Shown piece by piece: positions 316 through 62,202 of a DNA stretch of 64,000 nt (position 1 is its first letter; every line of letters begins with the position of its first letter). Where the stretch lies: NCBI RefSeq assembly GCF_000768685.1, contig NZ_AVPK01000001.1:620001-684000 (forward strand), given 5' to 3'. A program made the translations under genes and the position numbers. A model generated the notes under the pieces. That model had not been told where the DNA came from, did not search any database, and was given only the letters and a program-made list of their open reading frames with translations. The DNA is from Knoellia subterranea KCTC 19937 (GTDB lineage: Bacteria > Actinomycetota > Actinomycetes > Actinomycetales > Dermatophilaceae).

Positions 316-1830
316 TCAGTTGCTTCTGCCCTGGAGCACCATCTTGACATCCCGCGATGCGCCGTCGCGCACCACGGTCAGAGTCACGGTCGATCCGACC
401 GGCTTGGACCGGATCGCGACGACGAGTGCGTCCGGGTCGGCCATGGGTCGGCCCTCGAAAGCGGTGATGACATCGCCGGCCTTGAGGCCCGCCTTGTCGG
501 CCGGTCCACCCGGTGTGACGGCCGGGGTGTCCCCCGAGTCCGTCGCGATCCGCACACCCTCACCCTGGTACTCGCGGTCGAGCAGAACGCCGATGATCGG
601 GTGCTCGGCCTTGCCCGTCCGGATCAGCTGGTCCACGGTGATCTTGACCTGTGCACTGGGGATGGCGAAGCCCACGCCGATGTTGCCGCTCTGGCCACCG
701 ATCGCGTTGCCGGCCACCCGCGCGATGGCGGAGTTGATCCCGATGACCCGCCCCTCCATGTCGAGCAGGGGACCGCCCGAGTTGCCGGGGTTGATGGCCG
801 CGTCGGTCTGGATGGCGTTGATGAAGGACTGGTCGTTCGCCTCACCCGGCGTCACCGGTCGGTTGAGAGCGGAGATGATGCCGGTCGTGACCGTCGACTC
901 CAGGCCAAGCGGTGCGCCCACCGCGATGACGGGGTCGCCGACCACGACGGTGGTCGAGTCACCGAGGGGCAACGGCGTGAGGTCGGTGCGGTCCACCTTG
1001 AGCACGGCAAGGTCGTAGGAGACATCGCGTCCCACGATCTCGGCCTTGGACTGCTTCCCGTTGGTCAACACGACGGTGATCTCGCCACCGTTCGCAGCGG
1101 ACGAGACGACGTGGTTGTTGGTGACGATGTGTCCTTTGTCGTCGAGGACCCACCCCGAGCCGGTGCCGTCGCCATCAGCGGCCTCGACCCGAATCGTGAC
1201 CACGCTGGGGATCGCCTTGGCCGCGATGTTGGCCACGGACCCATCCGGCCGGGTCGTCGCGCCGGGACCCGGCTCCGGGGTCGCCCCCGAGGACACCGGG
1301 TCGAAGCCGTCCAGCCGGTCCGAAGACCCGAGCCACCCGCCGAGAAGCCCACCGCCGAGTCCGGCAAGAAGCGCAGTGAGGCCAGCGATGAGGAAGACGG
1401 CCAGCCACCCCGGGCCGCGCCGTTCGCGTGCCGGGGCGGCAGCGGGCGTCGACAAGGCATAGGGGTTGGCCGACGGGTCCTGATGGTGTGCGGTCGGTGC
1501 GGCGTACGAGCCCGGCGACGCGTAGGGGTTCGAGGTGGCGTGGGGGCCCGACGCGGCATACGGATTCTGTGCAGGAGGCGCGTACGGCGAGGGCGCGGCC
1601 TGGGTCGACCGATCCGACGGCTCGTGCGCCCAAGCGGTCCACGCAGTCTGGGCCGACGCCTCGGCCGACTCATCGACAGGGAGCCGCGGGGCCTGCCCCG
1701 GAGCCGGCCCGAACTCCTGGGTGCGGCTCAGATCGACCTCCAGAGTACGACTCAGGTCGACCTCCTCCGTGGGCTCGGGGTCGACATGGGGCCGGTCGGC
1801 GTCGTCGGGGCGTCCGCTGTCCTCGGTCAT
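316..1830 (-). CDS. htrA: HtrA/DegP-family membrane-anchored serine protease with PDZ domain
   Basis: Envelope quality-control protease of 504 aa. Residues 1-140 are a Pro/Ala/Tyr-rich cytoplasmic region with the heptapeptide EVDLSRT twice near the start. A membrane segment spans about 142-167. The trypsin-like domain carries the triad in TNNHVV (H240), YDLAVL (D273) and GNSGGP (S351). A PDZ domain occupies about the last 100 residues. The ATG at 1830 overlaps the TGA of the anti-sigma gene (ATGA), which decides the start over an upstream GTG at 1851. It is probably controlled by SigE as part of this operon. Confidence 0.92.
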   Translation of the reverse strand: MTEDSGRPDDADRPHVDPEPTEEVDLSRTLEVDLSRTQEFGPAPGQAPRLPVDESAEASAQTAWTAWAHEPSDRSTQAAPSPYAPPAQNPYAASGPHATSNPYASPGSYAAPTAHHQDPSANPYALSTPAAAPARERRGPGWLAVFLIAGLTALLAGLGGGLLGGWLGSSDRLDGFDPVSSGATPEPGPGATTRPDGSVANIAAKAIPSVVTIRVEAADGDGTGSGWVLDDKGHIVTNNHVVSSAANGGEITVVLTNGKQSKAEIVGRDVSYDLAVLKVDRTDLTPLPLGDSTTVVVGDPVIAVGAPLGLESTVTTGIISALNRPVTPGEANDQSFINAIQTDAAINPGNSGGPLLDMEGRVIGINSAIARVAGNAIGGQSGNIGVGFAIPSAQVKITVDQLIRTGKAEHPIIGVLLDREYQGEGVRIATDSGDTPAVTPGGPADKAGLKAGDVITAFEGRPMADPDALVVAIRSKPVGSTVTLTVVRDGASRDVKMVLQGRSN

Positions 1831-2414
1831 GCCCGAGATTCTGCCTCGCACACGACGAGGTTTCGAATGGAGGTGTCACTCACCCAGGTCGTCGACACGG
1901 TGCGGACCCGCGCACCGCTGGCGCCACCGGAGGGTGTGGCGACAGCCGGACGCGTCGTGGGCGACGGTCCACCCACCGACGTCACGGTCGTCGTCACCGA
2001 TCCGGTGCCGGCGAGGGTCAGGGTCCAGGCCACGGCCGCGGTGGCTCCGGCCGCCGCAGTCGCGATGGCAGCCGAGCGGAGCGGGCTGCGGTGCACCGGC
2101 GGTGCAGAGGGCGGCACCATCTCCAGGGGTGCACGCTCACGTGGTGCGCGCTCGCTCGTCTGGGCCATGGCCGGTCCGGTCATCGACGATGCGAGCGCGA
2201 CGAGTTGGGCGTGGAGGCTGCCGGGCATCGAGGGGCACCCCGTGGCGAGGAGCGACTGCAGTCGCCGCTCCCCCGCAACGGCGTGCTGGCAGGCCACGCA
2301 CGCGATGAGGTGTCGGTCCCACGCGTCGGTGCGCTGCACCGAGAGCTGGCCCGACACGTAGTCGGGGAGCTCGTCGAGGCGGCAGCGCTGCGAGGGACGC
2401 GACAGGTGGATCAC
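1827..2414 (-). CDS. Anti-sigma factor with zinc-binding HxxxCxxC motif (RseA-like)
   Basis: Likely membrane-anchored anti-sigma factor that holds the upstream-encoded SigE inactive. The N-terminal ZAS-type domain has H35-x3-C39-x2-C42. A hydrophobic Ala-rich stretch at about 113-137 could be one membrane span, followed by a short extracytoplasmic Ser/Thr/Pro-rich tail. The GTG start overlaps the sigE stop (GTGA) and its own stop overlaps the htrA start (ATGA), so the three genes look translationally coupled. Its position between sigE and htrA matches the mycobacterial sigE-rseA-htrA locus. Confidence 0.85.
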
Positions 2415-3061
2415 ACGGCACCCCGCGCGGGGGTGAGCACACCGGGGAGGCGGGTGGACGACGTGGTGGGCGCCTGACGAACCTCCGGTGCCCGGTGTGC
2501 CAGTGCCTCACGCAGCTGCGCACGGCCACGGTGGATGCGCGAACGCACCGTGCCGAGCTTGATGTCGAGCGTGGCCGCAATCTCCTCGTAGGACAGCCCC
2601 TCGATGTCACAGAGGACGACGGCCGCGCGGAAGTCGGGGGCGAGCGAGTCGAGGGCCCGCTGCACGTCGTCGTCGAAGTGGGTGTCCGTGTAGGTCTGCT
2701 CGGGACCGGCCTCGCGGCTGGGCAGGCGAGCCGCCGACTCGTCGGACAGAGCGTCGAAGCGGATGCGTTGCTTGCGGCGCATCTTGTCGAGGAAGACGTT
2801 GGTCGTGATGCGGTGCAGCCACCCCTCGAAGGTGCCGGGGCGGTAGGTGTGCAGGGACCGGAACACTCGGATGAACACGTCCTGGGTGAGGTCCTCGGCG
2901 TCGTGGACGTTGCCCGTCAGGCGGTAGGCCAAGCGGTAGACGCGCGCGGAGTGCTCCTCCACGATCTGCTCCCAGGTCGGCGGCGTCCACTCCCCCGTGG
3001 TCGCGCCCGCGTCGGTCGTCATCGTCGTCGTCCCCTGATCGGTGGCCATCTGGCTGTCCAT
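2411..3061 (-). CDS. sigE: ECF RNA polymerase sigma factor, SigE type
   Basis: Extracytoplasmic-function sigma factor of about 216 aa. Region 2 is clear ([20 protein letters not shown], then a tryptophan-containing core-binding segment and DKMRRKQR). Region 4 has the helix-turn-helix [20 protein letters not shown]. The reading frame stays open upstream to 3334, but the divergent methyltransferase and the promoter-like sequence make the ATG at 3061, or the ATG in MATDQ about 5 codons later, more likely. No good ribosome binding site is seen. It heads the sigE-anti-sigma-htrA operon and is expected to respond to envelope stress. Confidence 0.88.
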
Positions 3062-3163: not shown

Positions 3164-3799
3164 ATGAGCACCCTCAAGCCCGCGAGCTGGTCGTACGCCG
3201 AGGACTTCGTTCCCGAGCCCGAGGTGATCGAACAGGCGCGCGCCCGCGGCCTCTCGTTCGAGGCCGCCACGCCGGTGGGGACCGGTGCAGGAGCCACCCT
3301 GCGATTGCTGACGGCCGCCATCGGCGCCAAGCACGTCATCGAGGTGGGCACGGGTGCCGGCACGTCAGGGTTGTGGCTCCTCGCCGGGATGCCCCAGGAC
3401 GGCGTCCTCACGACGATCGACATCTCCCCGGAGCACCAGACGGCCGCGCGCGAGGCCTACGCCGCGGCCGGCTATCCGACACAGCGCACCCGGGTCATCT
3501 CCGGCCGAGCGACGGACGTGCTGCCCCGCATGACCGACGGCGCCTACGACATGGTGCTCATCGACGCGGACAAGGCGAGCTACCCGGCATACGTCGAGCA
3601 TGGAATTCGGCTCCTGCGCAGCGGAGGCGTCCTGGCCCTCGACAACATGCTGTGGCACGACAAGGTGGCCGACCCGGCGGCACGCGACGCCGAGACGACG
3701 ACGCTGCGCGACCTCGGCAAGTCACTGCGCGACAACGACGAACTGCTGCCCGCGCTCCTGCCGGTGAGCGACGGACTGTTCATCGCCGTCAAGCGCTGA
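3164..3799 (+). CDS. SAM-dependent O-methyltransferase (family 3, CCoAOMT-like)
   Basis: Class I methyltransferase of 211 aa. The SAM-binding glycine motif is [15 protein letters not shown] (about residues 58-72), with the acidic strand-2 position in [10 protein letters not shown] and the metal-binding region around [12 protein letters not shown] and [11 protein letters not shown], typical of cation-dependent O-methyltransferases. The substrate is unknown. It is divergent from sigE, the same position as Rv1220c in mycobacteria (from memory), which hints at a conserved envelope or stress link. The stop lies 16 bp from the convergent YdhR-like gene. Confidence 0.85.
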
Positions 3800-4181: not shown

Positions 4182-5692
4182 CGCAGACCTTCCAACCATC
4201 GCAACAGGAGTCGAGCACCGAACCCCGTTCCACCCTTGCCGTGGATTCCGGAGTCGACATCGGAACGGCCGGGGCCGGCGATGTCGAGATGGGCCCAACG
4301 ACGGTCCCCGACGAACTCGCGCAGGAACAGCGCCGCGGTGATCGACCCACCTCCGACCGAAGGTCCGATGTGGTTGATGTCGGCCACGTCGGACTCCAGT
4401 GCCCGACGGTAGGCCCGCACGAGCGGGAAGGGCCACAGCGTCTCACCTGCTGTCTCACCGGCCTCCCGCAACTGGACGGACAGGTCGTCGTCCGTGGCAT
4501 AGACCGGAGCCATCGAGCGGGCCAGCGCCACCCGCGCCGCACCGGTGAGCGTGGCGATGTCGATGACCACATCGGGGTCGAGCTCGGCATCGGCGTAGGC
4601 GAGCGCGTCCGCCAGGACGATGCGTCCCTCGGCGTCCGTGTTGCCGATTTCCGTCGTCGTCCCACCGAAGTGCGTCACGACGTCACCCGGCCGGTATGCC
4701 GCGCCGCTGACCATGTTCTCGGCGAGAGCGAGGAGTCCGGTCACCTTGACCGGAACGGCCAGGTCACGGCACGCGGCGAGCACCGCCAGGACGATGGCGG
4801 AGCCCGACATGTCGGTCTTCATCGCGAGCATGCCCTCGGCCGGCTTGACCTGGAGACCGCCCGAGTCGAACGTGATGCCCTTGCCGACGATGACCACGTG
4901 GGGAGTGTCTGCACCGGCACCCTCCGGGGTGTAGCCGAGCTGGACCAGGCGAGGTGGCGTCCCGGACCCGCCCCCCACCGCGAGGAGTCCGCCGAATCCG
5001 CCTGCGGCCAGGGACTTCTCGTCCCAGACCCGCACTTCGAGACCGTGCCGGGACGCAGCGGTCCGTGCCTGCCGCGCCATCCAGCCCGGGTTCTTGATGT
5101 TGGACGGAGTGTTGGCGAGGTTGCGCGCGATGATCGTCGCCCTGGCTCGGGAGACGGCGCGGGTGACCACGTCCTCCTCCACGTCGATGGCCACGATCGA
5201 CGTGGCGACCGTCGTGCCGGGGACCCATCCGTCGTTCGTGAGGCGAGCCGGTGCCCAGCCGCCCAGGACGGCCCCCTCGACGAAGGCTGCTTGGCCGGCT
5301 TCATCCGCCGACGGCGTCAGGAGGACGACCTGTGCGCGGCCGCGAGTGGCCCGGCCGGAGGCCGCGCCCGCCAGACGCAGGCCACCAGGTGTCCCGTCGC
5401 CGAGACCGACGAGCACGAGGGCGCGGGCGGCGTGCAGACCCGCGGGGAGTCGGACCACCGTCGACGCCCCCACGGACGTCGCCGGCTCGTGCGTCGCCAC
5501 CAGCTCGTCGGGATCGAAGCCGGCCGCCTCCAGTGCGGAGCGGACACCTGTCCCCCACGGGTCACCACCGGGTGAGACACCCAGGACCAGCGCGAGGTCG
5601 GACGGATCGAGGTCAGCCAGCACATCGGCGAGCGGACCGTCGGCAGCGGACCAGGTGGGCAGCAGGGGGGCGAGGAGATCTTCGACAGGCAC
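4178..5692 (-). CDS. pepA: Leucyl aminopeptidase (M17 cytosol aminopeptidase)
   Basis: Hexameric two-metal aminopeptidase of 504 aa that removes N-terminal residues from peptides. The C-terminal catalytic domain shows VGKGITFDSGG and MKTDMSGSA (about residues 265-295) and the family signature NTDAEGRIVLADAL (about 345). The N-terminal domain is the usual diverged macro-like region. The GTG at 5692 was chosen because a longer frame reads through a perfect terminator hairpin (5717-5750), and because TAGGGT lies 7 nt upstream of this GTG. Confidence 0.93.
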   Translation of the reverse strand: MPVEDLLAPLLPTWSAADGPLADVLADLDPSDLALVLGVSPGGDPWGTGVRSALEAAGFDPDELVATHEPATSVGASTVVRLPAGLHAARALVLVGLGDGTPGGLRLAGAASGRATRGRAQVVLLTPSADEAGQAAFVEGAVLGGWAPARLTNDGWVPGTTVATSIVAIDVEEDVVTRAVSRARATIIARNLANTPSNIKNPGWMARQARTAASRHGLEVRVWDEKSLAAGGFGGLLAVGGGSGTPPRLVQLGYTPEGAGADTPHVVIVGKGITFDSGGLQVKPAEGMLAMKTDMSGSAIVLAVLAACRDLAVPVKVTGLLALAENMVSGAAYRPGDVVTHFGGTTTEIGNTDAEGRIVLADALAYADAELDPDVVIDIATLTGAARVALARSMAPVYATDDDLSVQLREAGETAGETLWPFPLVRAYRRALESDVADINHIGPSVGGGSITAALFLREFVGDRRWAHLDIAGPGRSDVDSGIHGKGGTGFGARLLLRWLEGLR

Positions 5693-6068: not shown

Positions 6069-7301
6069 TCACGGAGGCCGCGATCCCCACGGCGTGTAGG
6101 TCAACAGTGCACAGGTCCACCACACCAACCCACCGATGATCGGCACGAGCAGGATGGCGACCCGCCGTCGCCAGTGCCCAACGATGCTCTCGCCCGTCGA
6201 CGTGCGCATCGCCACGCTCGCGAGCAGCGCCGCGATCGGGAAGTCGAGGAGCAGAAATCTCCACATGCTCGTGATCGGCCGGACGACGGCGAAGAGGTAG
6301 AGCGGGTAGGCCACGGCCCACGCCCGCACCTCCACCGGGATCCATCGTCCGTGTCGTCCGAGGATGAGCGCGAGGTAGGTGCCGCACAGCGCGACGAGAA
6401 CGACCACGCCCAGAAGCCCGTGTGCACTCCACGCCCAGTCGAGCCACAGCACGAACGGCCCCGACGCAGGCTTCTGCCCCCACGCCTCCTGGACCTGGAA
6501 GAAGGCCGTCGGGATGCCGCTCACGACACCGGCGAACACCGGCCAGGCGATCCCGGACAGCCCGGTCACGACGAGCATCACCGCCGCCGAGAGTCGCTGC
6601 CCACGCAACGGCGCCACGCCGGCGGCGCGGTCCTCCCGCACCCGCACCACGAGGTGGATGAGTGCGGCACACCCCATCGCGGCAGCCACACCCCGGGTGA
6701 GGCCGAGCGGCAGCGCGAGAAGGGCGACAACGGCATACCGTCGCCTCATCAGGTACAGCAGCGAGGCGGCCACGAGCACGACCGCGAGCGGCTCGGTGTA
6801 GGGCTTGAGCATGACCCCGGTGGCCGGATAGAAGCACCAGAGGCACGCGGCGACGAGGGCCAGACGTTGGCGTCCGGGCTGGGGCTCGGCGTGCAGGCCG
6901 TGCCGGAACAACGCCCACACGAGGAGCGCCGCAACGCCACCGAGCACGACATTGAGGCCCACGGCTCCGACGGTGAACGGGATCCCGAGCGCCATGAGTG
7001 GGCGCACCAGGAAGGGGAACAAGGGATAGAAGGCCCACGCGCTGTAGGTGAGTCGTCCGGTGACCGGGTCAGCGGGGAGCGGAACCGGATAGCCCTGTGT
7101 CGCAACCGTTTCGTACCACTCGCCGTCCCACAACCCGATGAGGTCACCGACCGTCGGATCGAGGTGACCGACCCCCGCCGGGTTCTGGAACCACGTCGCT
7201 GCGATCCACAGGGCACCGAGCGCGACGAGTCGGGAGGCCACATAGACGATCAGGATCGCCCGGATGGGATGGTCGAGGGCGCGCCGCCCCAGCGCCGTCA
7301 T
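6069..7301 (-). CDS. PIG-V-like integral membrane mannosyltransferase
   Basis: A 410-aa polytopic protein with about ten hydrophobic helices. The GT-C-type first loop contains WDGEWYETVATQGYP, recalling the WD-acidic-Y motif of GPI mannosyltransferase PIG-V and its actinobacterial relatives. It probably transfers mannose from polyprenyl-phosphate-mannose to a lipid or envelope glycan outside the membrane. The ATG at 7301 overlaps the stop of the preceding membrane protein (ATGA). A longer frame running upstream to 9032 is a shadow of that preceding gene. Confidence 0.7.
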   Translation of the reverse strand: MTALGRRALDHPIRAILIVYVASRLVALGALWIAATWFQNPAGVGHLDPTVGDLIGLWDGEWYETVATQGYPVPLPADPVTGRLTYSAWAFYPLFPFLVRPLMALGIPFTVGAVGLNVVLGGVAALLVWALFRHGLHAEPQPGRQRLALVAACLWCFYPATGVMLKPYTEPLAVVLVAASLLYLMRRRYAVVALLALPLGLTRGVAAAMGCAALIHLVVRVREDRAAGVAPLRGQRLSAAVMLVVTGLSGIAWPVFAGVVSGIPTAFFQVQEAWGQKPASGPFVLWLDWAWSAHGLLGVVVLVALCGTYLALILGRHGRWIPVEVRAWAVAYPLYLFAVVRPITSMWRFLLLDFPIAALLASVAMRTSTGESIVGHWRRRVAILLVPIIGGLVWWTCALLTYTPWGSRPP

Positions 7302-9394
7302 CCGCGCAGTCCTCGCACGTCCCACACGAAGACGTCCTCGACCTGGGTCGGCTCCCCGAGGACCGTCGCGAGGGACTCGCGCAACGCGGTCGTCTCGGGC
7401 CGCGTCGGCAGCACGACAGCGTCGGTGCGCCACGCTCGGAGGTCGTCCTCGAACTGCTGACGTTGAGTGGCCGAAGCCGGCATCACGGCGTTCGCGGCAT
7501 TGACGTCGTAGAGCCACAGCGACAGGGCACGACGCCGCGCGCCGTACTGACCGCCGCGGTCCTCCTGCCCGTTGGGTCCGACGAAGTAGCCCTCGACCAG
7601 AGGGAACGCCATCGTGTCCGCCGCGAGCTGCCAGTCGAACGCGCGGGCGTCGACGATGTCCGGGGGTGGCACGGCCAGCACCGAGCCGCCGTGCGTCCAG
7701 TCCCGCCAGGCGTCCCCGGTGAAGAACGTCGGCACGGTCGGACGCGGATCCACCTGAAGGGGAGTGGGCAGGACGGGGAGCAGCGCGACGACAGCAGCGG
7801 CCGTGGCAATCCACCCACCGACACGCGGCCACCGATCGTCCCCTGACTCGGCGGCTGCTGCGGCCGACAACGGGGAGGCCTTCATCGCGGCGTCGATCCC
7901 GATGGCGAGCAGCCCGCCGATCGCCGGGATGGCGATCATGGCGAACCGGGTCGGCAGGACGTTCTCGAGGACGGGGAGTTCGTCGAGAAGCGACCACAGC
8001 GCAGGAATGCCGGTCGGTTGCCCGTGGAGCAGGACCTCCTCCCCCAGCGAGAGCCACGACGTCACGAGGACGACCGCCGCGAGCGCCCGCACGACCGGGC
8101 GTCGGAAGAGGGCGACGGCAATGACGACGGTGAGTACGAGGAGTGGCACCCCGAAGAAGGCGTTCTCCTCGGTCCGGTTCATCGACAGCGCCGCCGATGC
8201 CCACGGGTCGGCTCCGAAGGTGCGGGTCGCCCGACCCCACAGGGCGGCGAGGTCGTTGCCCCCGGGCGGGTGGTAGATCGAGGTGTAGCTCTGCGGCCCG
8301 AAGAACTGCCACCACAGCGGGAGCGCGACGACTGCGAGGCACAGGGCTGCTCCGATGCCGACGCCGGGCAGCAGACGGACGAGGTGGATCCGTCGGTGGA
8401 GCGCGAGCACGACGCCGGCCATGCCCATGCCGATCGCGGCGAGCAGCAGCGGCTCCTCGCCGATGAACAGTTGCCAGGTGACGAGCAGGCCCAGGACGAC
8501 ACCGTCCCGAACCCTCCGTCGGCCGCTCGCGAGCAGGAGGACACGGTCGACGATGACCGGGATGAGCACGAGGAAGATGAAGTTGGGGTGGCCGTTGGCG
8601 TGCGACACCATCGCCGGTGCGAACCCGGTGAACCAGCCGCCGATGGCGGACGCGGTGCGCCCCAGTCCTCGACGACGCAGGAACCAGAACCACGCCGCAG
8701 CGGTGCCCGCGAGACCGAGGAGCTCGACGACGAAGAAGGTCACGTGGGCGCTCGTCGCCAGAGTGAGTGGCGCGAGGGGCAGGCCGAGACCCGTGACGGC
8801 CGCATTGGCCATGAGGTTCACGCCGTCGGGGAAGTTCTGGCGGTCGCTGAAGAGCGGATTCGAGAAGCTCGCGACGTTGTGCGCCGACGCACCGAAGTAC
8901 CACTCGAACGCCTGGTGGTCCTGCACGCCCTGCGAGAGGTAGCCCGTGGACACGCGACCGACGAGCCCCGACAGCACGTGCAGCGCCGTCCCGAGATAGA
9001 CGGCCAGAACGAGGAGGTCGGGCCAGCGCCACGACACCCGTGTGGTCGTGATCGCGTCTCTCTCACCGGTTTTCGGCGTATGCCGTCCGCTCACCTCCTC
9101 TGCGCCCGTTTCCTGCGCAGTGGCCACCTCCGCCACGTCCGCCAACTCGACCGGCTCGCCGTCAGAGGTCGGGATGGGGGGCGCGGGGAGAAGATTCGAG
9201 CCGCCGCGAAGAAGGGCGTCATTGGCCGCGATCTGGGCGTCCAGGCGCCCGAGAACCTCGTCGACCCGGTCGGGTGGATAGCCCACGAACTGCAGCCGGA
9301 ACTCGCCGTGGTCCGGGTGTCGCCGCGCGAGGAACCACGCCAAGGTGCCGGCGACGAGCAGGACCGGAACGCTCAGGATGAGGGCCCAGGTCAT
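7298..9394 (-). CDS. Polytopic membrane protein with N-terminal TM plus DivIVA-like segment
   Basis: A 698-aa protein. Residues 1-20 form one membrane helix, followed by FRLQFVGYPPDRVDEVLGRL, which resembles the short DivIVA-domain motif, then a linker of about 60 residues. The linker contains an 18-bp copy of the scattered repeat, read here as SGRHT. From residue about 120 to 600 there are many hydrophobic helices like GT-C glycosyltransferases, and a soluble C-terminal region follows. The ATG at 9394 overlaps the stop of the SRPBCC gene. Function unrecognised; neighbours suggest envelope glycan assembly. Confidence 0.6.
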   Translation of the reverse strand: MTWALILSVPVLLVAGTLAWFLARRHPDHGEFRLQFVGYPPDRVDEVLGRLDAQIAANDALLRGGSNLLPAPPIPTSDGEPVELADVAEVATAQETGAEEVSGRHTPKTGERDAITTTRVSWRWPDLLVLAVYLGTALHVLSGLVGRVSTGYLSQGVQDHQAFEWYFGASAHNVASFSNPLFSDRQNFPDGVNLMANAAVTGLGLPLAPLTLATSAHVTFFVVELLGLAGTAAAWFWFLRRRGLGRTASAIGGWFTGFAPAMVSHANGHPNFIFLVLIPVIVDRVLLLASGRRRVRDGVVLGLLVTWQLFIGEEPLLLAAIGMGMAGVVLALHRRIHLVRLLPGVGIGAALCLAVVALPLWWQFFGPQSYTSIYHPPGGNDLAALWGRATRTFGADPWASAALSMNRTEENAFFGVPLLVLTVVIAVALFRRPVVRALAAVVLVTSWLSLGEEVLLHGQPTGIPALWSLLDELPVLENVLPTRFAMIAIPAIGGLLAIGIDAAMKASPLSAAAAAESGDDRWPRVGGWIATAAAVVALLPVLPTPLQVDPRPTVPTFFTGDAWRDWTHGGSVLAVPPPDIVDARAFDWQLAADTMAFPLVEGYFVGPNGQEDRGGQYGARRRALSLWLYDVNAANAVMPASATQRQQFEDDLRAWRTDAVVLPTRPETTALRESLATVLGEPTQVEDVFVWDVRGLRG
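9078..9095 (+). repeat. Scattered repeat GTATGCCGTCCGCTCACC, exact copy inside a gene
   Basis: Exact 18-bp copy within the linker of the polytopic membrane protein gene, where the minus strand reads SGRHT plus the next codon. Confidence 0.9.
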
Positions 9395-10128: not shown

Positions 10129-10935
10129 TCACTCGGCGTGTGTGCCGGAACCCTCGGGTGCGTCGACCTCCCGTCCGCGATCGGCGGCGAGGATCGTGCC
10201 CACGGCCTCGTCGACATCGTCGGTGAGCGTGATGAGGTCGAGGTCCTTGGCGCTGATCGTTCCGGCGCCGAGGGCAGCGGACTTCAGCCAGTCGATCAGG
10301 CCCTGCCAATAGGTCGTTCCCATGAGGACGATGGGGAACGACGTCACCTTCTGGGTCTGCACGAGCGTGATGGCCTCGAAGAGCTCGTCGAGCGTGCCGA
10401 AGCCGCCGGGCAGGACGATGAAGCCCTGCGCGTACTTGACGAACATCGTCTTGCGGGCGAAGAAGTAGCGGAAGTTCACGCCCAGGTCGACGTACTCGTT
10501 GAGACCGGTCTCGAAGGGCAACTCGATCCCGAGCCCGACCGAGGTTCCACCCGCGCCGCAGGCACCCTTGTTGGCCGCCTCCATGGCGCCGGGTCCGCCA
10601 CCGGTGATCACGGCATACCCGGCGTGGACGAGAGCCGCGCCGACGCGCTCACCGAGCGCATAGGTGGGGTCGTCCGCCTTGGTCCGGGCCGAGCCGAAGA
10701 CGCTCACGGCCGGCCCGAGTTCGGCCAACGCGCCGAATCCCTCGACGAACTCGGACTGGATCCGCATCACGCGCCACGGGTCGGTGTGGACCCAGTCCGC
10801 CGGACCGCGGCTGTCGAGCAGGCGCTGGTCGGTCGTCGAGTCGGGCACCTTGGAGCGCCGCATGACAACGGGACCCTTGTAGTAGTCCTGCGTCGCGTCC
10901 CAGGGCTGTGGTGCGTCCTGCGCTGCATCAGTCAC
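10129..10935 (-). CDS. TIGR00730 / LOG-family Rossmann-fold protein
   Basis: A 268-aa protein of the LOG family (cytokinin riboside 5'-monophosphate phosphoribohydrolase-like, formerly misnamed lysine decarboxylase). It carries the two family signatures: TGGGPGAMEAANKGA (about residue 110) and LPGGFGTLDELFE (about residue 175), which form the nucleotide-binding and catalytic site. Bacterial members hydrolyse nucleoside monophosphates. Its place between the DivIVA-like gene and dapE matches the mycobacterial order. The GTG start is supported by TAGGTT 6 nt upstream. Confidence 0.88.
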   Translation of the reverse strand: MTDAAQDAPQPWDATQDYYKGPVVMRRSKVPDSTTDQRLLDSRGPADWVHTDPWRVMRIQSEFVEGFGALAELGPAVSVFGSARTKADDPTYALGERVGAALVHAGYAVITGGGPGAMEAANKGACGAGGTSVGLGIELPFETGLNEYVDLGVNFRYFFARKTMFVKYAQGFIVLPGGFGTLDELFEAITLVQTQKVTSFPIVLMGTTYWQGLIDWLKSAALGAGTISAKDLDLITLTDDVDEAVGTILAADRGREVDAPEGSGTHAE

Positions 10936-10947: not shown

Positions 10948-12027
10948 GGCCAGCCACCTGAGCATGGCCGCCTCTGAGGACTGGAGCTGGTCGATCGGGC
11001 ATCGTTCCTCGTCGTGGTGGGCGAGGTTGGGGTCGCCCGGTCCGAAGTTCACGGCCGGGACGCCCATCGCCTGGAAGCGGGCGACGTCGGTCCACCCCTG
11101 CTTCGCGATGACGTCGACGCCGAGGGCCTCGACGAACGCACGGGCTGCCGGCAGGTCGAGCCCGGGTCGCGCGCCGCCGGCGTTGTCGGTCACGGCGAAG
11201 GTCAGGCCGTCGAAGACCTCGTGCATGTGCGCCACCGCCTCCTCCTCGCTGCGATCGGGGGCGTAGCGGTAGTTGACGGTCACCGTGCAGCGGTCGGGAA
11301 TGACGTTGCCGGCGATGCCGCCGCTGATGCCGACGGCGTTGAGCGCCTCGCGATACTCGAGCCCGTCGACCTCGACCGTCCGGGTCTCGTAGGCCGTGAG
11401 GCGGGTCAGGATCTCGGCCGCGTCGTGGATGGCGTTGTGGCCGTTCCACGGGCGGGCCGAGTGCGCCGCCGCACCCTTGGTGGTGAGGTCGATGCGGAGA
11501 GTTCCCTTGCACCCGCCCTCGATGATCGCCCCCGTCGGCTCGAGCAGCACGGCGAAGTCGGCGTCCTCGATGAGGTCGGGGCGCTGCTGCTGGATGTGGA
11601 GGAGGCCGTTGTGCTCGCTCTCGATCTCCTCACCTTCGTAGAACACGTAGGTGACGTCGCGGCTCGGCACGGGAACCGTTGCGGCGAGCCGGAGTTGGAC
11701 GGCGACGCCACCCTTCATGTCGACGGTGCCGCGGCCCCACAGGACCTCTCCCTCGCCGTCACCGCCGGGCAGGCGACGGGTCGGCAGGTTCGGCGGATCG
11801 GTGAGGGGGACGGTGTCGATGTGCCCCGCGAGGACGACGCGTTCGTCGTGTCCGAACTCGGTCCGGGCCACGACCGTGTTGCCGATCCGGGTCACCGTGA
11901 GGTGCTCGAGCGGTCGCAGGGCCTCTTCGATCGCGTCGGCGATCGTCGCCTCCCCCAGGCTCACGGACACGATGTCGCAGAGGGCTGCAGTGAGGGTGAC
12001 AACGTCGGAAGTGAGGTCGAGCGGCAT
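10945..12027 (-). CDS. dapE: Succinyl-diaminopimelate desuccinylase
   Basis: M20-family metalloenzyme of 360 aa releasing LL-diaminopimelate from its N-succinyl derivative in lysine and peptidoglycan synthesis. Metal ligands and motifs: VVLAGHIDTVP (His about 67), LWGRGTVDMKGG (Asp), FYEGEEIESE (catalytic Glu pair), and the dimerisation-domain HSARPWNGHNAIHDA. TAGGGT 7 nt upstream supports the ATG at 12027. dapD lies about 540 bp away on the other strand and dapC is also in this window. Confidence 0.92.
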   Translation of the reverse strand: MPLDLTSDVVTLTAALCDIVSVSLGEATIADAIEEALRPLEHLTVTRIGNTVVARTEFGHDERVVLAGHIDTVPLTDPPNLPTRRLPGGDGEGEVLWGRGTVDMKGGVAVQLRLAATVPVPSRDVTYVFYEGEEIESEHNGLLHIQQQRPDLIEDADFAVLLEPTGAIIEGGCKGTLRIDLTTKGAAAHSARPWNGHNAIHDAAEILTRLTAYETRTVEVDGLEYREALNAVGISGGIAGNVIPDRCTVTVNYRYAPDRSEEEAVAHMHEVFDGLTFAVTDNAGGARPGLDLPAARAFVEALGVDVIAKQGWTDVARFQAMGVPAVNFGPGDPNLAHHDEERCPIDQLQSSEAAMLRWLA

Positions 12028-12034
12028 ACGCGAA

Positions 12035-12063: not shown

Positions 12064-12528
12064 TCAGGTGGGCCGGTCGAAGTCGGCACCACGACCGACC
12101 GCGAAGACGTCCAGCGTGATCTCGGCCGGGTTGCGCGGATTGAGGGTCGGCATGTCCCCCACCTTGCACTCGAGCAGTCCCCACATCATCTCGGCCGTGC
12201 TCGCCGGTGCCGCTGCCGCAGCGATGTCGAGATCCTTCCAGATCACGGCGAGGCGTATGCCGTCATGCCGAGTCACCCAGTGCCCGAAGGCGTCGTTGAA
12301 CGCGTCCCAGTTCGGACCGGCCCACTCGGGCAGGTCGAAGACCTCGTGCAGGTGGGCGTGGGCCTCCGCGCGAGTCGTCATCCGCGCGCCCTCGAGCACG
12401 ACCCGCTCGTAGTCCCACCTGTCGAGGAAGGCGTCGAGTTCTGGCTCGACGTCGGAGTGCACTCGCCACAGCGGACCGGAGGTCAGCCACGGCAACTCCG
12501 TCCGGATCGGGGGTCGCGGGAAGGGCAT
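12064..12528 (-). CDS. Barstar-domain (ribonuclease-inhibitor-like) protein
   Basis: A 154-aa protein whose central part (about residues 40-115) matches the barstar fold: [20 protein letters not shown], then the signature [19 protein letters not shown]. Barstar binds and neutralises barnase-type RNases. No barnase gene is adjacent, as is common for housekeeping barstar-like proteins in Actinobacteria. It may inhibit a secreted RNase or a related toxin encoded elsewhere. Divergent from dapD with only 36 bp between start codons. Confidence 0.75.
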
Positions 12529-17447: not shown

Positions 17448-17507
17448 CCAACGGACACAGGTATGCCGGCCGCGGACTTTCGCGGCCGGCATACCTGTGT
17501 CCGTTGG
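17448..17507. terminator. Perfect 27-bp stem terminator built on the scattered repeat core
   Basis: Left arm 17448-17474 and right arm 17481-17507 are exact reverse complements around a 6-nt loop. Each arm contains GGTATGCCGGCCG, so the repeat word is present as an inverted pair. It starts one base after the MMPL stop, between two convergent genes. Confidence 0.85.
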
Positions 17508-20636: not shown

Positions 20637-20642
20637 ATAGTA
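20637..20642 (-). promoter_or_regulatory. -10 box TACTAT, leaderless start for fdxA
   Basis: TACTAT on the minus strand ends 6 nt before the fdxA ATG. It overlaps both a GGCATAC repeat core (20640-20646) and the ATG of the divergent GNAT gene. Confidence 0.55.
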
Positions 20643-47357: not shown

Positions 47358-48560
47358 ATGAATCCGTGGATCGCGTTGGTGGGCGGCATCGTCATCGGTG
47401 CGCTGACGGCATACCTGCTTCTCAGGCAGGCGTATGCCGTCCGCGCGGCTTCCGCTGTCACCGAACGCGACCTGCTGCGTGAGCGAGTCGTCGACCTCGA
47501 GGCCTCGCTGGCGGAGGACCTGGAGACGGCCTCACTGCTGGCGCCGCTGCGTGACGCTCTGGGTCGGGTCGAGCGTCAGGTCGGCGTGCTGGAGCGCGAC
47601 CGGGTGCAGCAGTTCGGGGCGATTCGTGCCGTCATGGGGCGCGTCGAGTCGGAGGCGCAGGAGCTCGGCCGCCAGACGCAGTCCCTGGCCGGATCACTGC
47701 GTTCGTCGTCGGTGCGCGGATCGTGGGGCGAGGTGCAGCTCCGCCGCGTCCTCGAGGCCTCGGGCATGCTCGCCCGCTGCGACTTCGATGAGCAGGTGCG
47801 GGCGCGGAGTCGGCACGACCGTGAGGTGCGGCCCGACGTAGTCGTGCGCCTGCCCGGCGACCGAGTCCTCGTCGTCGACGCAAAGGCCCCGATGGCGGCC
47901 TTCCTCGATGCCCAGACCGACGGTCTGGGCGAGGACGAACGTGCCGAACTTCTGGGCGACCATGCGCGCGCCCTCCGGCAGCACGTCCACGCGCTGTCGG
48001 CCAAGGACTACTGGTCGGCGTTCGACGCGACGCCGGAGATGGTCGTCTGCTTCGTGCCGAGCGACGCGATGCTCGCGGCTGCACTGGCCGCGGATCCGGG
48101 GCTGCACGAGCGAGCCATGGCGTCGCGGGTCGTGCTCGTCGGGCCCGGCGCGCTGTTGGCACTGCTGCGGACTGTCGCGTTCGGGTGGCAGCAGGACTCG
48201 CTCTCGACGAGTGCCCGAGAACTGCTCGCGCTCGGCCAGGAGCTCTATCGCCGGCTCGCGACGCTCGGCACGCACACGGCCAAGATGGGCCGCTCGTTGC
48301 ACGCATCGGTCGAGGCCTACAACCAGTTCGTCGGGGCGCTCGAGTCGCGTGTGCTCGTGACCGCTCGCCGGATGCATGATCTCGACCTCGTGTCGGACGA
48401 CCTGCCCGAGCTCGGTCCGCTGGAGACCGGGCCGCGCGTCCTCACGGCCCTCGAGCTCATCGAGGCAGTCACCGACGAGGACGCCCGTCCGGAGCTGCTC
48501 CCCGACGTGCCACGCCGGCTCGAGGACCGAACGCGTCGCGCGGCCGACGACGCCGGCTGA
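47358..48560 (+). CDS. rmuC: DNA recombination protein RmuC
   Basis: A 400-aa RmuC-family protein: N-terminal membrane helix (about residues 4-22), coiled coil, then the nuclease-like core with RSSSVRGSWGEVQLRRVLEASGML, DVVVRLPGDRVLVVDAKAPMAAFLDA and the C-terminal KMGRSLHASVEAYNQFVGALESRVL. RmuC limits inversions at short inverted repeats in E. coli. The membrane-helix region contains two inverted copies of the repeat core within 31 bp. A perfect hairpin follows. Confidence 0.9.
   Translation: MNPWIALVGGIVIGALTAYLLLRQAYAVRAASAVTERDLLRERVVDLEASLAEDLETASLLAPLRDALGRVERQVGVLERDRVQQFGAIRAVMGRVESEAQELGRQTQSLAGSLRSSSVRGSWGEVQLRRVLEASGMLARCDFDEQVRARSRHDREVRPDVVVRLPGDRVLVVDAKAPMAAFLDAQTDGLGEDERAELLGDHARALRQHVHALSAKDYWSAFDATPEMVVCFVPSDAMLAAALAADPGLHERAMASRVVLVGPGALLALLRTVAFGWQQDSLSTSARELLALGQELYRRLATLGTHTAKMGRSLHASVEAYNQFVGALESRVLVTARRMHDLDLVSDDLPELGPLETGPRVLTALELIEAVTDEDARPELLPDVPRRLEDRTRRAADDAG
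47407..47440. repeat. Inverted pair of repeat cores at the start of rmuC
   Basis: GACGGCATACCTGC (from 47405) faces GCAGGCGTATGCCGTC 6 nt later. The two arms are complementary except for a 2-base insertion, and together encode part of the N-terminal helix. Confidence 0.7.
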
Positions 48561-50010: not shown

Positions 50011-50029
50011 GGTGAGCGGACGGCATACC
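50011..50029 (-). repeat. Scattered repeat, exact 19-bp copy upstream of the FrnE-like gene
   Basis: GGTGAGCGGACGGCATACC, identical to consensus, in the 101-bp gap between the TetR stop and the FrnE-like start. Not coding. Confidence 0.9.
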
Positions 50030-50818: not shown

Positions 50819-50837
50819 GGCGAGCGGACGGCATACC
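50819..50837 (-). repeat. Scattered repeat, one mismatch, between FrnE-like gene and ispH
   Basis: GGCGAGCGGACGGCATACC lies in the 76-bp gap between two convergent stops. Non-coding. Confidence 0.88.
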
Positions 50838-51937: not shown

Positions 51938-51955
51938 GTATGCCGTCCGCTCGCC
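51938..51955 (+). repeat. Scattered repeat, one mismatch, between ispH and xseA
   Basis: GTATGCCGTCCGCTCGCC lies in the divergent gap between the ispH and xseA starts. Non-coding. Confidence 0.88.
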
Positions 51956-55381: not shown

Positions 55382-56302
55382 TGCAGCCAGTGCTCGTCGT
55401 CGGTGAAACGCTCGTCGACATCGTCCACACGCCCGACGGGCAGGTGAGCGAGCACGTCGGCGGCTCCCCCGCGAACGTCGCCATGGGAGTGGCCCGCCTC
55501 GGACACGACACCTCCCTGGCCACCACGCTCGGGGATGACGAGCACGGTCGACAGTGCCGCGAGCAGATCACCGACCACGGGGTCGTCATCGAGAACCTCG
55601 ACGCGGGTTCACACGCGACGTCGACGGCTGCCGCGACGATCGACGACTCGGGCGCGGCCACCTACGACTTCGACCTGCACTGGAAACTCCACCCCGTCGC
55701 GGACCTCGGCGCCTTCGGACACGTCCACACGGGCTCGATCGCCGCGACGCTCACCCCCGGCGCGGAGGTCGTGGCGCAGACGCTCACCGAGGCACGGGCG
55801 CACGCGACGGTCTCCTACGACCCCAACGCCCGGCCGAGCATCATGGGCGAACCCGACACCGTCCGCCCGCAGATCGAGTCGCTCATCGCGTTGAGCGATG
55901 TTGTCAAGGCGAGCGAGGACGACACCGAATGGCTGTATGCCGGCCGCTCGCTTCCCGACGTCATGGCCGCCTGGGGTGCCCTGGGACCGAGCCTCGTCGT
56001 GGTCACCCGGGGCGGCGACGGTGTCGCCTACCGCGTCACTGCCACGGGTGAATTCGGAGAGGCCCCCACCCGCGCCGAGTCGGTGGCCGACACCGTCGGC
56101 GCCGGCGACTCCTTCATGGCCGGCCTGATCTCCGGCCTGCTCGATGCCGGCCTGCTCGGCGATGCCGACGCCCGTGACCGCCTCGCCGCGAGTTCGCTCG
56201 CCGACGTCGAGGGCGCCATCAGTCGAGCACTTGCCACGAGCGCGATCACGGTCGGGCACGCTGGGGCCTACGCACCAACCCGAGAGGAAATCGAGAAGGA
56301 CC

Positions 56303-56310: not shown

Positions 56311-58014
<1,704 letters not shown>

Positions 58015-58692: not shown

Positions 58693-59538
58693 ATGTCGGT
58701 GAGGGTCGTGGGGCTGAACGTGCATCCGGTGAAGAGCACGGCGATTCGACCGGTCGCCTCGGCTGCTGTCGAGCGGGCGGGGTTCGCCGGGGATCGGCGG
58801 TGGATGGTCGTCGACCAGCAGGGGACTCTTGTGTCGGCGCGGGAGTGCCACGCGCTGTTCCGGATCGAGGCGGACACACCTGAAACCGACGCGTCCGTGC
58901 CGGGTGGTTTGCGGTTGAGGGCTCCCGGGGTCGAGGACCTTCTCGTCGGCAATGCGGCCGGTGCGGAGGTGGCAGTGCGGCTGCAACGGCACCACCTGGT
59001 CGGAGGGCTGGTGTCGGCCGAGGCGGACGAGTGGATTCGCCATGCCGCAGGACGCTCGGACGTGCGGCTCGTGCGGTGCGTCGATCCCACGGCCCGGGCA
59101 CTCAACCCGGCGTTCAGTCGGGAAGGGGACCACACGGCATACGCCGATGGTTATCCGGTGACGCTCGCGAGCCTGCGCTCGCTCGCCCGGCTCAACGACT
59201 GGATCGCCGAGGGCGCGGTCGAGCGCGGCGAGGAGCTGCCCGAGCCACTGCCGATCGAACGGTTTCGCCCCAACGTCGTCATCGACGGGGATCTCGAGGC
59301 GTTCGTCGAGGACACGTGGGGGACGGTCCGGCTCGGCGAGGTGACGTTCCGGGTCGCGAAGCCGGTCGACCGCTGCGTCATGACGACGATCGACGTCGAG
59401 TCGTTGACGACGGGCAAGGAACCTGTGAGAACCCTTGCGCGACACCGGCGTTGGGACGGCGCGACGTGGTTCGCGATCCAGCTCATCCCCGACGGGACGG
59501 GCGTCGTCAACGTCGGCGACGACGTCAAGCCCGCCTGA
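58693..59538 (+). CDS. MOSC-domain protein with beta-barrel N-terminus
   Basis: A 281-aa protein of the MOSC_N-MOSC type related to mARC/YcbX enzymes that bind molybdenum cofactor. The N-terminal domain starts VRVVGLNVHPVKS. The MOSC part has RFRPNVVIDG and the conserved cysteine in KPVDRCVMTTIDVE (ligand to Mo). GAGGTGAAGG precedes the ATG. Substrates of relatives are N-oxygenated compounds. Confidence 0.88.
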   Translation: MSVRVVGLNVHPVKSTAIRPVASAAVERAGFAGDRRWMVVDQQGTLVSARECHALFRIEADTPETDASVPGGLRLRAPGVEDLLVGNAAGAEVAVRLQRHHLVGGLVSAEADEWIRHAAGRSDVRLVRCVDPTARALNPAFSREGDHTAYADGYPVTLASLRSLARLNDWIAEGAVERGEELPEPLPIERFRPNVVIDGDLEAFVEDTWGTVRLGEVTFRVAKPVDRCVMTTIDVESLTTGKEPVRTLARHRRWDGATWFAIQLIPDGTGVVNVGDDVKPA

Positions 59539-59600: not shown

Positions 59601-60249
59601 AGGTGGGGCGCAGGGCGTCCGCGATAGGGGTCGTCCCGTTGTTGAAGGCGATTGTGCGCCGCGCGAATCCGCGGTGTTCGATGACGTATGCCGCGACGCT
59701 CGCCACGTCGTCCCGGCTCACCCGCCAGCTCGTGACGCCTTCGCCGACTTCGAGGTGACCCGTTCCCGCGTCGTCCGTGAGGGTGCTCGGAGCGAGGATC
59801 GTCCAGACGAGGTCGGTCTCGCGGAGGTGGGCGTCGGCGTCTGACTTGGCCTGCGCGTACGTGAAGAACGAATTGTCCTCTGGCACACCGTGATCCGGCC
59901 CGGCACCGAAGTAGGACACCATGACGTAGCGCGGCACACCCGCTGCCAGGCAGGCCTCCATGGACCGGATCGCCGCGTCGCGGTCGACGGCGATCGTGCG
60001 CTCGGGGTTGCCTCCCCCAGCACCAGCGGACCACACGACGACGTCGGCTCCGGAGAGGGCATCGGCCATCTCGTCGACGGAGAGGTACTCGACGTCGAGA
60101 ACGGCCGGATGGGCCCCGACGTCCTCGATGTCGGGGCCCTGCTCGGGGTCGCGCACCCACGAGGTCACGACGTGACCGTTGTCGGACAGGAGGCGGGCCA
60201 GGCGCAGAGCGATCTTGCCGTGCCCGCCGATGATCGTGACTGCCGCCAT
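59599..60249 (-). CDS. NAD(P)-binding atypical short-chain dehydrogenase
   Basis: A 216-aa Rossmann protein with IIGGHGKIALRLARLL at the N-terminus, followed by ADVVVWSAGAG and YVMVSYFGAG, matching the SDR_a5/NAD(P)H-binding (YwnB-like) proteins. The role is unknown. It lies two bases after the ohr stop, suggesting a shared oxidative-stress transcript. Confidence 0.82.
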   Translation of the reverse strand: MAAVTIIGGHGKIALRLARLLSDNGHVVTSWVRDPEQGPDIEDVGAHPAVLDVEYLSVDEMADALSGADVVVWSAGAGGGNPERTIAVDRDAAIRSMEACLAAGVPRYVMVSYFGAGPDHGVPEDNSFFTYAQAKSDADAHLRETDLVWTILAPSTLTDDAGTGHLEVGEGVTSWRVSRDDVASVAAYVIEHRGFARRTIAFNNGTTPIADALRPT

Positions 60250-60725: not shown

Positions 60726-62120
60726 ATGACGTTCGAGACCAGATTCCCCGACGGGTTCCTCTGGGGAGCCGCCACCGCGTCCTTCCAGATCGAGGGTTCG
60801 ACCACTGCCGACGGTCGCGGGCCGTCCATCTGGGACACCTTCTGCGACATCGAGGGCAACGTCATCAACAAGGACACCGGCGACCCAGCCTGCGATCACT
60901 ACCGGCGCATGCCGGAGGACGTCGCCCTCATGAAGGAGCTCGGGCTCGACGCCTATCGCTTCTCCGTCGCCTGGCCACGGGTCATCCCGACCGGGGTGGG
61001 GGCGGTCAACGCAGCGGGCCTCGACTTCTACAGCCGACTCGTGGATGAGTTGCTGGACAACGGAATTCGCCCCTTCGTGACGCTCTATCACTGGGACCTC
61101 CCCCAGACCCTGGACGACCGGGGCGGCTGGCTCAACCGCGAGATCAAGGACTGGTTCGCGGAGTACACCGGCGTCGTGGTGGACGCTCTCGGCGACCGCG
61201 TGAAGAACTGGACGACCCTCAACGAGCCGTGGTGCTCCTCGCTCCTCGGCTACTCCCTCGGCCACCATGCACCCGGCCACACCGACCCCGTCGAGGGGCT
61301 CATTGCCGCACACCACCTCATGCTCGCCCATGGCACCGCCGTCCCGATCATCCGCGAGAAGTGCCCCGACGCGCAGGTGTCGATCACGCTCAACCCCTCC
61401 CAGGTGTGGGGTCCGGACGAGCCGACCGACGACCCGACGGACACTCCGAACGACGCCGACGCCGACGCCATCCGTCGGGCCGACAACATCTACAACGGCA
61501 TCTTCTTCGGCCCGCTCTTCCACGGCGCCTACCCGCAGAGCCTGCTGGACGACACCGCCCACCTCACCGACCACTCATGGATCCACGACGGCGACCTCGA
61601 GGTCATCAACGCGCCGCTCGACAACTTGGGCGTGAACAACTACTTCCCCACCCGCGTCCGCCATGTCGACGGTGCCGTGCAACCCCTCCCCGGCCTCGAC
61701 GGCGTCGAGGACGTCGCCCCTCGCCCACCGCTCACCGACATGGGCTGGGAGATCTCACCGCAGGGCCACCACGACATCCTCATGCGCTCGGCGCAGGAGT
61801 GCGGCCTGCCCGTCTACATCACCGAGAACGGCTCTGCCTGGCCGGACGAGGTCGACACCGGCCCCGAAGGTGCGGCGGTCCACGACGGTGAGCGGACGGC
61901 ATACCTGCATGGTCATCTGGACGCCGTCAGGCGAGCGATCGACGACGGCGCCGACATCCGCGGCTACTTCGCGTGGTCGCTCATGGACAACTTCGAGTGG
62001 GCGTTCGGCTACAGCAAGCGGTTCGGCATCGTCCACGTGGACTACGACACCCAGGTGCGCACGATCAAGGACTCCGGGCGGGAGTACGCCCGGATCATCG
62101 CGGCCCACCACGGAGAATGA
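60726..62120 (+). CDS. GH1 beta-glucosidase
   Basis: A 464-aa cytoplasmic glycoside hydrolase cleaving beta-glucosides. Acid/base E167 in TLNEPW and nucleophile E367 in ITENGS are intact. The N-terminal FPDGFLWGAATASFQIEG is the second family signature. No signal peptide. The segment GERTAYLHGHL, where relatives have a D-x2-R-x2-YL-x2-HL pattern, is encoded by an exact 19-bp copy of the scattered repeat. Confidence 0.93.
   Translation: MTFETRFPDGFLWGAATASFQIEGSTTADGRGPSIWDTFCDIEGNVINKDTGDPACDHYRRMPEDVALMKELGLDAYRFSVAWPRVIPTGVGAVNAAGLDFYSRLVDELLDNGIRPFVTLYHWDLPQTLDDRGGWLNREIKDWFAEYTGVVVDALGDRVKNWTTLNEPWCSSLLGYSLGHHAPGHTDPVEGLIAAHHLMLAHGTAVPIIREKCPDAQVSITLNPSQVWGPDEPTDDPTDTPNDADADAIRRADNIYNGIFFGPLFHGAYPQSLLDDTAHLTDHSWIHDGDLEVINAPLDNLGVNNYFPTRVRHVDGAVQPLPGLDGVEDVAPRPPLTDMGWEISPQGHHDILMRSAQECGLPVYITENGSAWPDEVDTGPEGAAVHDGERTAYLHGHLDAVRRAIDDGADIRGYFAWSLMDNFEWAFGYSKRFGIVHVDYDTQVRTIKDSGREYARIIAAHHGE
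61887..61905 (-). repeat. Scattered repeat, exact 19-bp copy inside the GH1 gene
   Basis: GGTGAGCGGACGGCATACC, in frame as GERTAY plus the first base of the next codon. Confidence 0.9.
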
Positions 62121-62176
62121 CTGGCCGGCTGAGTCGGTGAGGTCACGATTCGGAGGTCGCACCGCCGAAACAGTGG

Positions 62177-62202
62177 GTATGCCGTCCGCGGCTGGGTAGG
62201 GT
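62177..62202 (+). promoter_or_regulatory. Promoter region of amino-acid ABC operon with a repeat 12-mer
   Basis: TAGGGT (62197-62202) is a likely -10 box, giving a leader of about 50 nt with AAGGAG before the GTG. The repeat word GTATGCCGTCCG (62177-62188) occupies the -35/spacer region. Confidence 0.45.

Follow-up and report, generated by a model that had tools for sequence, protein, structure and literature searches.

To our knowledge, DNA uptake sequences have been established in two Gram-negative families only, and competent Gram-positives are commonly regarded as accepting DNA of any kind. The uptake signal sequence (USS) of the Pasteurellaceae occurs at a density of about one per kilobase or two. 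Excerpts of the literature describe it as a short word over-represented genome-wide, with two types in one family that follow its tree (PMC12616744), and two further descriptions, likewise in excerpt (PMC1626085, PMC7811141), are matched by the pattern reported here. In the Neisseriaceae, the DNA uptake sequence (DUS) is present in thousands of copies, with intergenic inverted pairs, dialects within the family and members without it (excerpts of PMC3630211). In Micrococcus luteus, deletion of comEC abolishes transformation and Flp pili belong to the apparatus (PMC4322843, PMC6370729, both in excerpt). Here, we describe a candidate DNA uptake sequence, the 8-mer GTATGCCG, in a window of 64,000 nucleotides from the actinobacterium Knoellia subterranea KCTC 19937 (contig NZ_AVPK01000001.1, positions 620,001 to 684,000), and follow it through the genome, the family and genomes outside the family.

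In the window, the 12-mer GTATGCCGTCCG occurs exactly ten times, six times on the plus and four times on the minus strand, with an expectation of 0.00 from 100 dinucleotide shuffles. A preliminary description of this DNA had listed ten such 12-mers, six in one orientation and four in the other, where far less than one was expected by chance; recounting bore this out, and nine of its ten starts were correct, the start given as 57655 being in fact 57645. Its estimate of about 43 copies of the core GTATGCC/GGCATAC agreed with our count of 43, and the excess is larger than it had supposed, because shuffled sequences contain 2.12 cores (largest 6) and not six or seven. G follows 42 of the 43 seven-base cores, and the repeating unit is the 8-mer GTATGCCG, present in 42 copies. 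The inverted pair that had been placed in a terminator is a hairpin whose RNA fold reaches -62.1 kcal/mol (z -12.59). Positions in the window are listed below, first for the exact matches to GTATGCCGTCCG, then for the remaining copies of the core GTATGCCG and for the hairpin.

9078..9089, plus strand, exact 12-mer, with core GTATGCCG
21079..21090, plus strand, exact 12-mer
34087..34098, minus strand, exact 12-mer
47432..47443, plus strand, exact 12-mer, inverted pair with the core at 47407
50017..50028, minus strand, exact 12-mer
50825..50836, minus strand, exact 12-mer
51938..51949, plus strand, exact 12-mer
57645..57656, plus strand, exact 12-mer
61893..61904, minus strand, exact 12-mer
62177..62188, plus strand, exact 12-mer
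1554..1561, minus strand, core
3585..3592, minus strand, core
4694..4701, plus strand, core
6731..6738, minus strand, core
10611..10618, minus strand, core
12022..12029, minus strand, core
12255..12262, plus strand, core
15126..15133, minus strand, core
16524..16531, minus strand, core
17461..17468, plus strand, core in hairpin
17487..17494, minus strand, core in hairpin
20640..20647, plus strand, core
21513..21520, minus strand, core
24236..24243, minus strand, core
26068..26075, minus strand, core
28636..28643, minus strand, core
28736..28743, plus strand, core
31951..31958, plus strand, core
33766..33773, plus strand, core
36016..36023, plus strand, core
37062..37069, plus strand, core
39045..39052, minus strand, core
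39394..39401, plus strand, core
40171..40178, plus strand, core
40864..40871, plus strand, core
46000..46007, minus strand, core
46816..46823, plus strand, core
47407..47414, minus strand, core, inverted pair with the 12-mer at 47432
55935..55942, plus strand, core
56352..56359, minus strand, core
59135..59142, minus strand, core
59686..59693, plus strand, core
17448..17507, no strand assigned, inverted repeat forming a terminator-like hairpin (28-bp stem and 4-base loop in the predicted fold) with two cores head to head

Throughout the 3.57-Mb genome, GTATGCCG was found 2,444 times (1,233 + 1,211) compared to 54 times (22 + 32) for the reversed word, corresponding to one copy per 1.46 kb and a 45-fold excess, and the 12-mer 408 times (202 + 206) compared to 0 + 0 for its reversed control. 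In a 464-kb sample of the same genome, consisting of the window and 20 stretches of 20 kb each, GTATGCCG was the most over-represented 8-mer, with 293 copies versus 13.2 expected from an order-3 Markov model (about 22-fold). One of the two refuting outcomes named at the outset, counts near Markov expectation, thus did not appear in the 464 kb examined. The spread of the word over genes and intergenic DNA was also evident in the sample, in which 235 of the 293 copies are coding, 54 non-coding and 4 at a gene edge, the density being 0.57 per kb for coding and 0.72 to 1.44 per kb for intergenic DNA; these coding assignments, like all codon counts below, rest on a simple home-made gene caller that is visibly wrong in places, for example in parts of locus L145. 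The two strands carry the word equally, with 145 copies on the G-rich versus 148 on the C-rich strand in our sample. For another genome (G129), 20 stretches sampled along its one contig gave 136 versus 135, replication direction being taken from GC skew alone, which is weak in these stretches. Pooling of 81 high-count genomes gave 84,296 forward versus 84,411 reverse copies, and the initial view that this is no strand-skewed signal such as Chi or the FtsK orienting sequence (KOPS) stands. Spacing is slightly more even than random (coefficient of variation 0.87 versus 1.01 +/- 0.06 in simulations, 0.5% of which were as low), and 15 of the 16 pairs of neighbours no more than 80 bp apart are inverted, several of them forming hairpins by eye.

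Codon choice at the word departs from that of the remaining genes. In five of six frames, the word is spelt with the rarer codon, contrary to usage elsewhere in the sample: TAT was used at 88 of 104 positions in word context compared to 313 of 1,802 elsewhere, GTA at 24 of 29 compared to 638 of 13,216, CAT at 14 of 19 compared to 831 of 3,647, ATA at 28 of 53 compared to 125 of 4,296, and GCA at 70 of 101 compared to 1,342 of 16,841. This bending of codon choice was strong in all six other word-bearing genomes sampled, with pooled motif codon use of 198/300 in another Knoellia (41.9 expected), 47/77 in Terrabacter (5.5), 43/67 in Humibacillus (4.1), and 79/96, 69/84 and 29/48 in three further genera (4.2, 15.0 and 2.8). 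In contrast, the five genomes without the word were near expectation (0/15, 0/15, 0/35, 2/20 and 5/70 versus 0.9, 2.5, 2.9, 1.1 and 6.2 expected). The word overrides codon usage and is thus kept as DNA, not as protein.

Two further Knoellia genomes, whose aligned DNA is 80.7% and 79.9% identical to that of the window's genome, delimited the conserved unit. Of the aligned word sites, 55 of 66 in the first comparison and 42 of 56 in the second were identical, compared to 9,333 of 30,298 and 7,524 of 26,446 for other 8-mers with three A/T; sites present in only one genome of a pair numbered 11 and 16 in the first pair, and 14 and 17 in the second. Conservation of the eight letters ranged from 0.86 to 1.00 per position versus about 0.82 by base, the fourth letter (T) being the least conserved in both comparisons (0.86 and 0.88). 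The flanks showed the three-base rhythm of genes alone, and conservation above background stops at 8 bases. Among non-coding copies, 19 of 54 continue with the tail TCCGC, but only 25 of 235 coding ones do, indicating that the longer word reported initially is the form favoured where coding allows. Of the one-base neighbours of GTATGCCGTCCGC, the change of T to G at the ninth base was alone in being at all common (13 versus 46 exact copies). As judged from these alignments, the conserved unit is the 8-bp GTATGCCG, extended, coding permitting, to about GTATGCCGTCCGCTCNCCT; the 12-mer therefore holds as a favoured longer form, and not as the conserved unit itself. A mobile repeat, named beforehand as the other outcome that would refute the pattern, did not emerge, since conservation between species ends with the 8 bases.

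To define how far the word extends, 149 genomes of the family were counted. At least 500 copies of GTATGCCG were present in 81 genomes (30 of 53 genera), 130 to 499 in 15 and 7 to 111 in 53, these cut-offs being our own choice, and in the high group the ratio to the reversed control ranged from 2.5 to 50.5. Seventeen named genomes were chosen from 80 loci, and 13 of them were high. High counts of GTATGCCG (reversed control in brackets) were found, among others, in Knoellia remsis with 3,277 (276), Humibacillus xanthopallidus with 3,225 (439), Intrasporangium oryzae with 2,765 (357), Phycicoccus elongatus with 2,614 (80), Terrabacter sp. Root85 with 2,300 (237), Ornithinimicrobium tianjinense with 1,758 (29) and Arsenicicoccus bolidensis with 1,660 (578), and low counts in Intrasporangium flavum with 66 (21), Dermacoccus abyssi with 46 (28), an uncultured Phycicoccus with 35 (7) and Janibacter indicus with 18 (12). 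Of five other genera sampled, two have GTATGCCG as their leading 8-mer; in one it ties with an overlapping 8-mer, and in the remaining two an overlapping 8-mer ranks ahead of it. The genera g25 and g35 each contain high and low members, and in close genera the word is at chance level. Outside the family, none of 354 genomes sampled from the order (largest count 180) and none of 392 sampled from the phylum (largest 386, in a 7.5-Mb genome with 176 control copies) reached 500 copies; the two samples overlap by 7 genomes and comprise 739 different ones. One outsider, the 1.8-Mb genome G422 of another family in the phylum, has a high ratio for its group (161 copies versus 30 reversed).

In a tree built from ComEC (41 rows), the family forms one clade (100/99), including Ornithinimicrobium and Dermacoccus, with carriers among the lineages at its unresolved base. 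The GTATGCCG label needs 8 changes on this tree, at least 6 of them on well-supported branches. Because genomes with other words (G016, G040, G144 and, by kinship, Janibacter indicus) were scored minus for GTATGCCG, these changes mix losses and replacements.

De novo counts in stretches of genomes without GTATGCCG revealed a different word, CGAAGGGGG, in G144, a genome sister to Janibacter indicus (100/100, ComEC tree). This word is strand-balanced and occurs 1,265 to 1,939 times, compared to 11 to 30 for its reversed control, in all 11 genomes sampled from the Janibacter clade (g37 and g38), which hold 7 to 41 copies of GTATGCCG; the other 138 family genomes contain 11 to 80 copies of CGAAGGGGG. 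In the sampled G144 loci (L177-L180, L054, L153), its density is 36 per 100 kb, and rare codons were used at 34 of 40 positions in its context versus 7.2 expected. CGAAGGGGG has no core in common with GTATGCCG and is, from these counts, an apparent outright replacement word. Besides this replacement, counts suggest that three variant words exist in the family, each differing from GTATGCCG by one or two bases and each drawn from samples of one genome: GGATGCCG in G016 (L051, L164; 22 in 33 kb, codons 11/14 versus 1.3), GTACGCCG in G040 (L181-L184, L052, L158; 80 in 113 kb, codons 24/53 versus 4.3) and GTACGGCG in G069 (L245, L246, L148; 38 in 60 kb, codons 18/43 versus 3.9). Their densities of 63 to 71 per 100 kb compare to 63 for GTATGCCG in Knoellia, and G069 also holds GTACGCCG (20 in 60 kb, codons 13/38 versus 3.3). 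The codon test for variant words is noisy, as seen for GGATGCCG in G083 (22/56 versus 12.2) and for GTACGGCG in G084 (8/20 versus 2.4), at background density.

Three further candidates were not retained. TACCAGGGCAACCG in G040 was rejected as a scattered word, being a tandem repeat inside one gene: at L183 18910-19560, a unit containing CAGGGCAA, in most cases as TACCAGGGCAACCG, is repeated about 19 times in tandem-like fashion, which made it look scattered in the counts. GCTGCGCAA in G125 (2/5 rare codons versus 0.4) and the palindromic GGACGTCC in G010 (8/32 versus 6.1) had no clear codon support and are not claimed as words. The palindrome is in about six-fold excess in G010 (21 sites in 113 kb versus 3.5; L173-L176, L050, L156).

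The high copy number in both orientations, the disregard for codon usage, the inverted pairs, the dialects and the clade-wise absence of the word match what is described for DUS and USS, and we therefore consider it likely that in this actinobacterial family GTATGCCG serves as an uptake signal for competence based on a Tad pilus. In such a system, the word on extracellular double-stranded DNA would be bound by a receptor at the cell surface, for which a minor pilin of a Tad/Flp-type pilus or the DNA-binding membrane protein ComEA is the most likely candidate. Import would then rely on the pilus and ComEA, and ComEC would pass one strand into the cell, where it could recombine. Word-bearing DNA would be taken up more often, so that new copies would spread and old ones would be restored by recombination with DNA from relatives; biased uptake could in this way act as a molecular drive, leaving copies of either orientation within as well as outside genes. 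Binding, uptake preference, the identity of the receptor and competence itself we infer from sequence. The resemblance to DNA uptake sequences proposed in the preliminary description, to which none was known to be established in Actinobacteria, is supported by strand balance, codon bending, 8-base conservation and the replacement word. In the open literature, searched without preprints and with few subscription journals, none of the titles and abstract openings listed reported such a word in Actinobacteria/Actinomycetota, Intrasporangiaceae or Knoellia.

The machinery for such uptake is encoded in the K. subterranea genome, in which ComEA (SLBB and helix-hairpin-helix domains) adjoins ComEC. 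The cluster at L145 contains genes for Ssd/CpaE, TIGR03819 TadA, a TadB-like protein, a DUF4244 (Flp-like) protein, a Rv3655c-type TadE and TIGR03816, of which Ssd and the TadB-like gene scored below curated cut-offs, as did ComEA and ComEC in NCBIfam. A second tad cluster in L040 carries TadA, as well as CpaB over its cut-off, its remaining genes being named by eye. The helicase-linked tad cluster in L145 also contains a sortase-domain gene (8363-9136), flanked by the TadB-like and the Flp-like gene; it passes the cut-off of Pfam but, as a class F sortase, not that of NCBIfam. In a second Knoellia (L146), the gap between these two flanking genes is shorter. The search for competence genes recommended in the preliminary description hence recovered ComEA, ComEC and Tad/Flp pilus genes, and recovered them in genomes without the word too.

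Several observations weigh against an uptake signal. No machinery gene tested separates word-bearing from word-less family genomes: with or without the word, ComEC (PF03772) was found in 145 of 149 and the TIGR03816 pilin in 146, of which 136 passed the cut-off; CpaB (TIGR03177) reached E 0.001 in 140 genomes and its cut-off in 27, of both kinds, and the helicase-linked tad cluster lies in loci of both sorts (tblastn, 20 loci). As ComEC and TIGR03816 are near-universal and the tad cluster occurs with or without the word, these genes explain the possibility of uptake, not its specificity. The two TadE-like pilins of Knoellia were detected by tblastn in 9/10 and 8/10 word-bearing loci versus 6/10 and 5/10 others, a weak trend confounded by relatedness, and no receptor gene tracks the word among PilT, ComEC, TIGR03816, CpaB and the tad cluster. 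PilT (TIGR01420) is over cut-off in only 2 of 149 family genomes, so that the machine is not the type IVa pilus known from the classic cases; together with a third, fragmented case, these PilT-type ATPases lie in G025, G108 and G005 (L033-L035). Samples of 60-113 kb from G083, G084, G010, G058, G041 and G125 yielded no convincing word, which shows that the word is dispensable. Close pairs are about as numerous as chance predicts (16 versus 13.4), their orientation alone departing from it, and our literature search, by titles and abstract openings, found no report of transformation in these species.

Among other explanations, a target of a DNA methyltransferase, of restriction or BREX-like defence, or of a nucleoid or segregation protein appears very unlikely. 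A non-palindromic 8-bp site is possible for such a factor, and GTATGCCG is present in all 20 stretches sampled along the G129 chromosome. However, restriction sites are usually avoided, whereas this word is enriched; it shows no strand bias, falls to chance level in close genera and in the 739 non-family genomes, and is replaced by an unrelated word in relatives. We regard as very unlikely a Chi-like recombination hotspot, at which the 8-mer would stop or redirect a break-processing helicase-nuclease and so promote repair. Chi sites are short, non-palindromic octamers, dense and spread through genes, and GTATGCCG resembles them in these respects and in its strong conservation at orthologous sites (55/66). 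Chi is active in a single orientation and over-represented on the leading strand, in contrast to the lack of orientation bias in both genomes examined by their weak GC skew, and neither the single members without the word in the word-bearing genera g25 and g35 nor the switch to CGAAGGGGG in one clade and the inverted close pairs would be expected of it. KOPS was rejected, there being no origin-terminus strand skew by GC skew. Finally, a family of repetitive extragenic palindromic (REP) or miniature inverted-repeat transposable (MITE-like) elements, or a by-product of codon usage, is scarcely credible: some copies do form hairpins, yet most lie within called genes (235/293), conservation between species does not exceed background beyond 8 bases, the letters after the word differ between genera, and the word overrides codon usage instead of following it. 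The alternatives raised in the preliminary description, a methylase or nucleoid site and a REP-like family, are thus weakened by the missing skew, the codon bending, the absence from close genera and the replacement in one clade.

If GTATGCCG is an uptake signal, natural transformability, at present or in the recent past, is predicted for word-bearing strains of Knoellia, Terrabacter, Humibacillus, Ornithinimicrobium, Phycicoccus and Janibacter, and the word would be a tag to add for genetic work on these genera. On balance, we favour a history in which actinobacteria independently evolved their own Tad/Flp-pilus uptake system, whose word drifted (GTATGCCG, GGATGCCG, GTACGCCG, GTACGGCG) and was once replaced clade-wide by the unrelated CGAAGGGGG. 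If this is true, the specificity of a receptor could change abruptly, with more than 1,000 sites of the genome being rewritten. A family of high-GC Gram-positives with thousands of strand-balanced words, with variants, absences and one replacement, would offer an independent test of how such tags arise, spread (biased uptake versus selection) and change.

Among the known systems, the Flp/Tad transformation of M. luteus involves ComEA, ComEC and two tad clusters, as are present in the K. subterranea genome; in the paper describing it (PMC4322843), the phrase 'uptake sequence' occurs 0 times. The Pasteurellaceae words, Hin-USS AAGTGCGGT and Apl-USS ACAAGCGGT, and the bacteria that carry them are unrelated to those described here, and the two USS types have their inner core in common, unlike GTATGCCG and the Janibacter word CGAAGGGGG. 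The Knoellia 12-mer GTATGCCGTCCG has ATGCCGTC-x-G in common with the Neisseria AT-DUS ATGCCGTCTGAA, as given in excerpts on the latter. Shared descent was set aside, as the invariant parts differ: the Neisseriaceae dialects all keep CTG, and the Knoellia family keeps GTATGCCG and varies the tail. The likeness is probably a coincidence. Unlike the Neisseriaceae, Knoellia is a monoderm actinobacterium of a family in which PilT is rare (2/149 over cut-off), and no ComP-like receptor was found among the genes searched. Besides ComP, PpdA/ComN has been proposed as a sequence-specific receptor for uptake sequences. What the Knoellia word and the Neisseriaceae DUS (AT-DUS 5'-AT-GCCGTCTGAA-3', receptor ComP) have in common are thousands of copies, inverted pairs, dialects and non-carriers.

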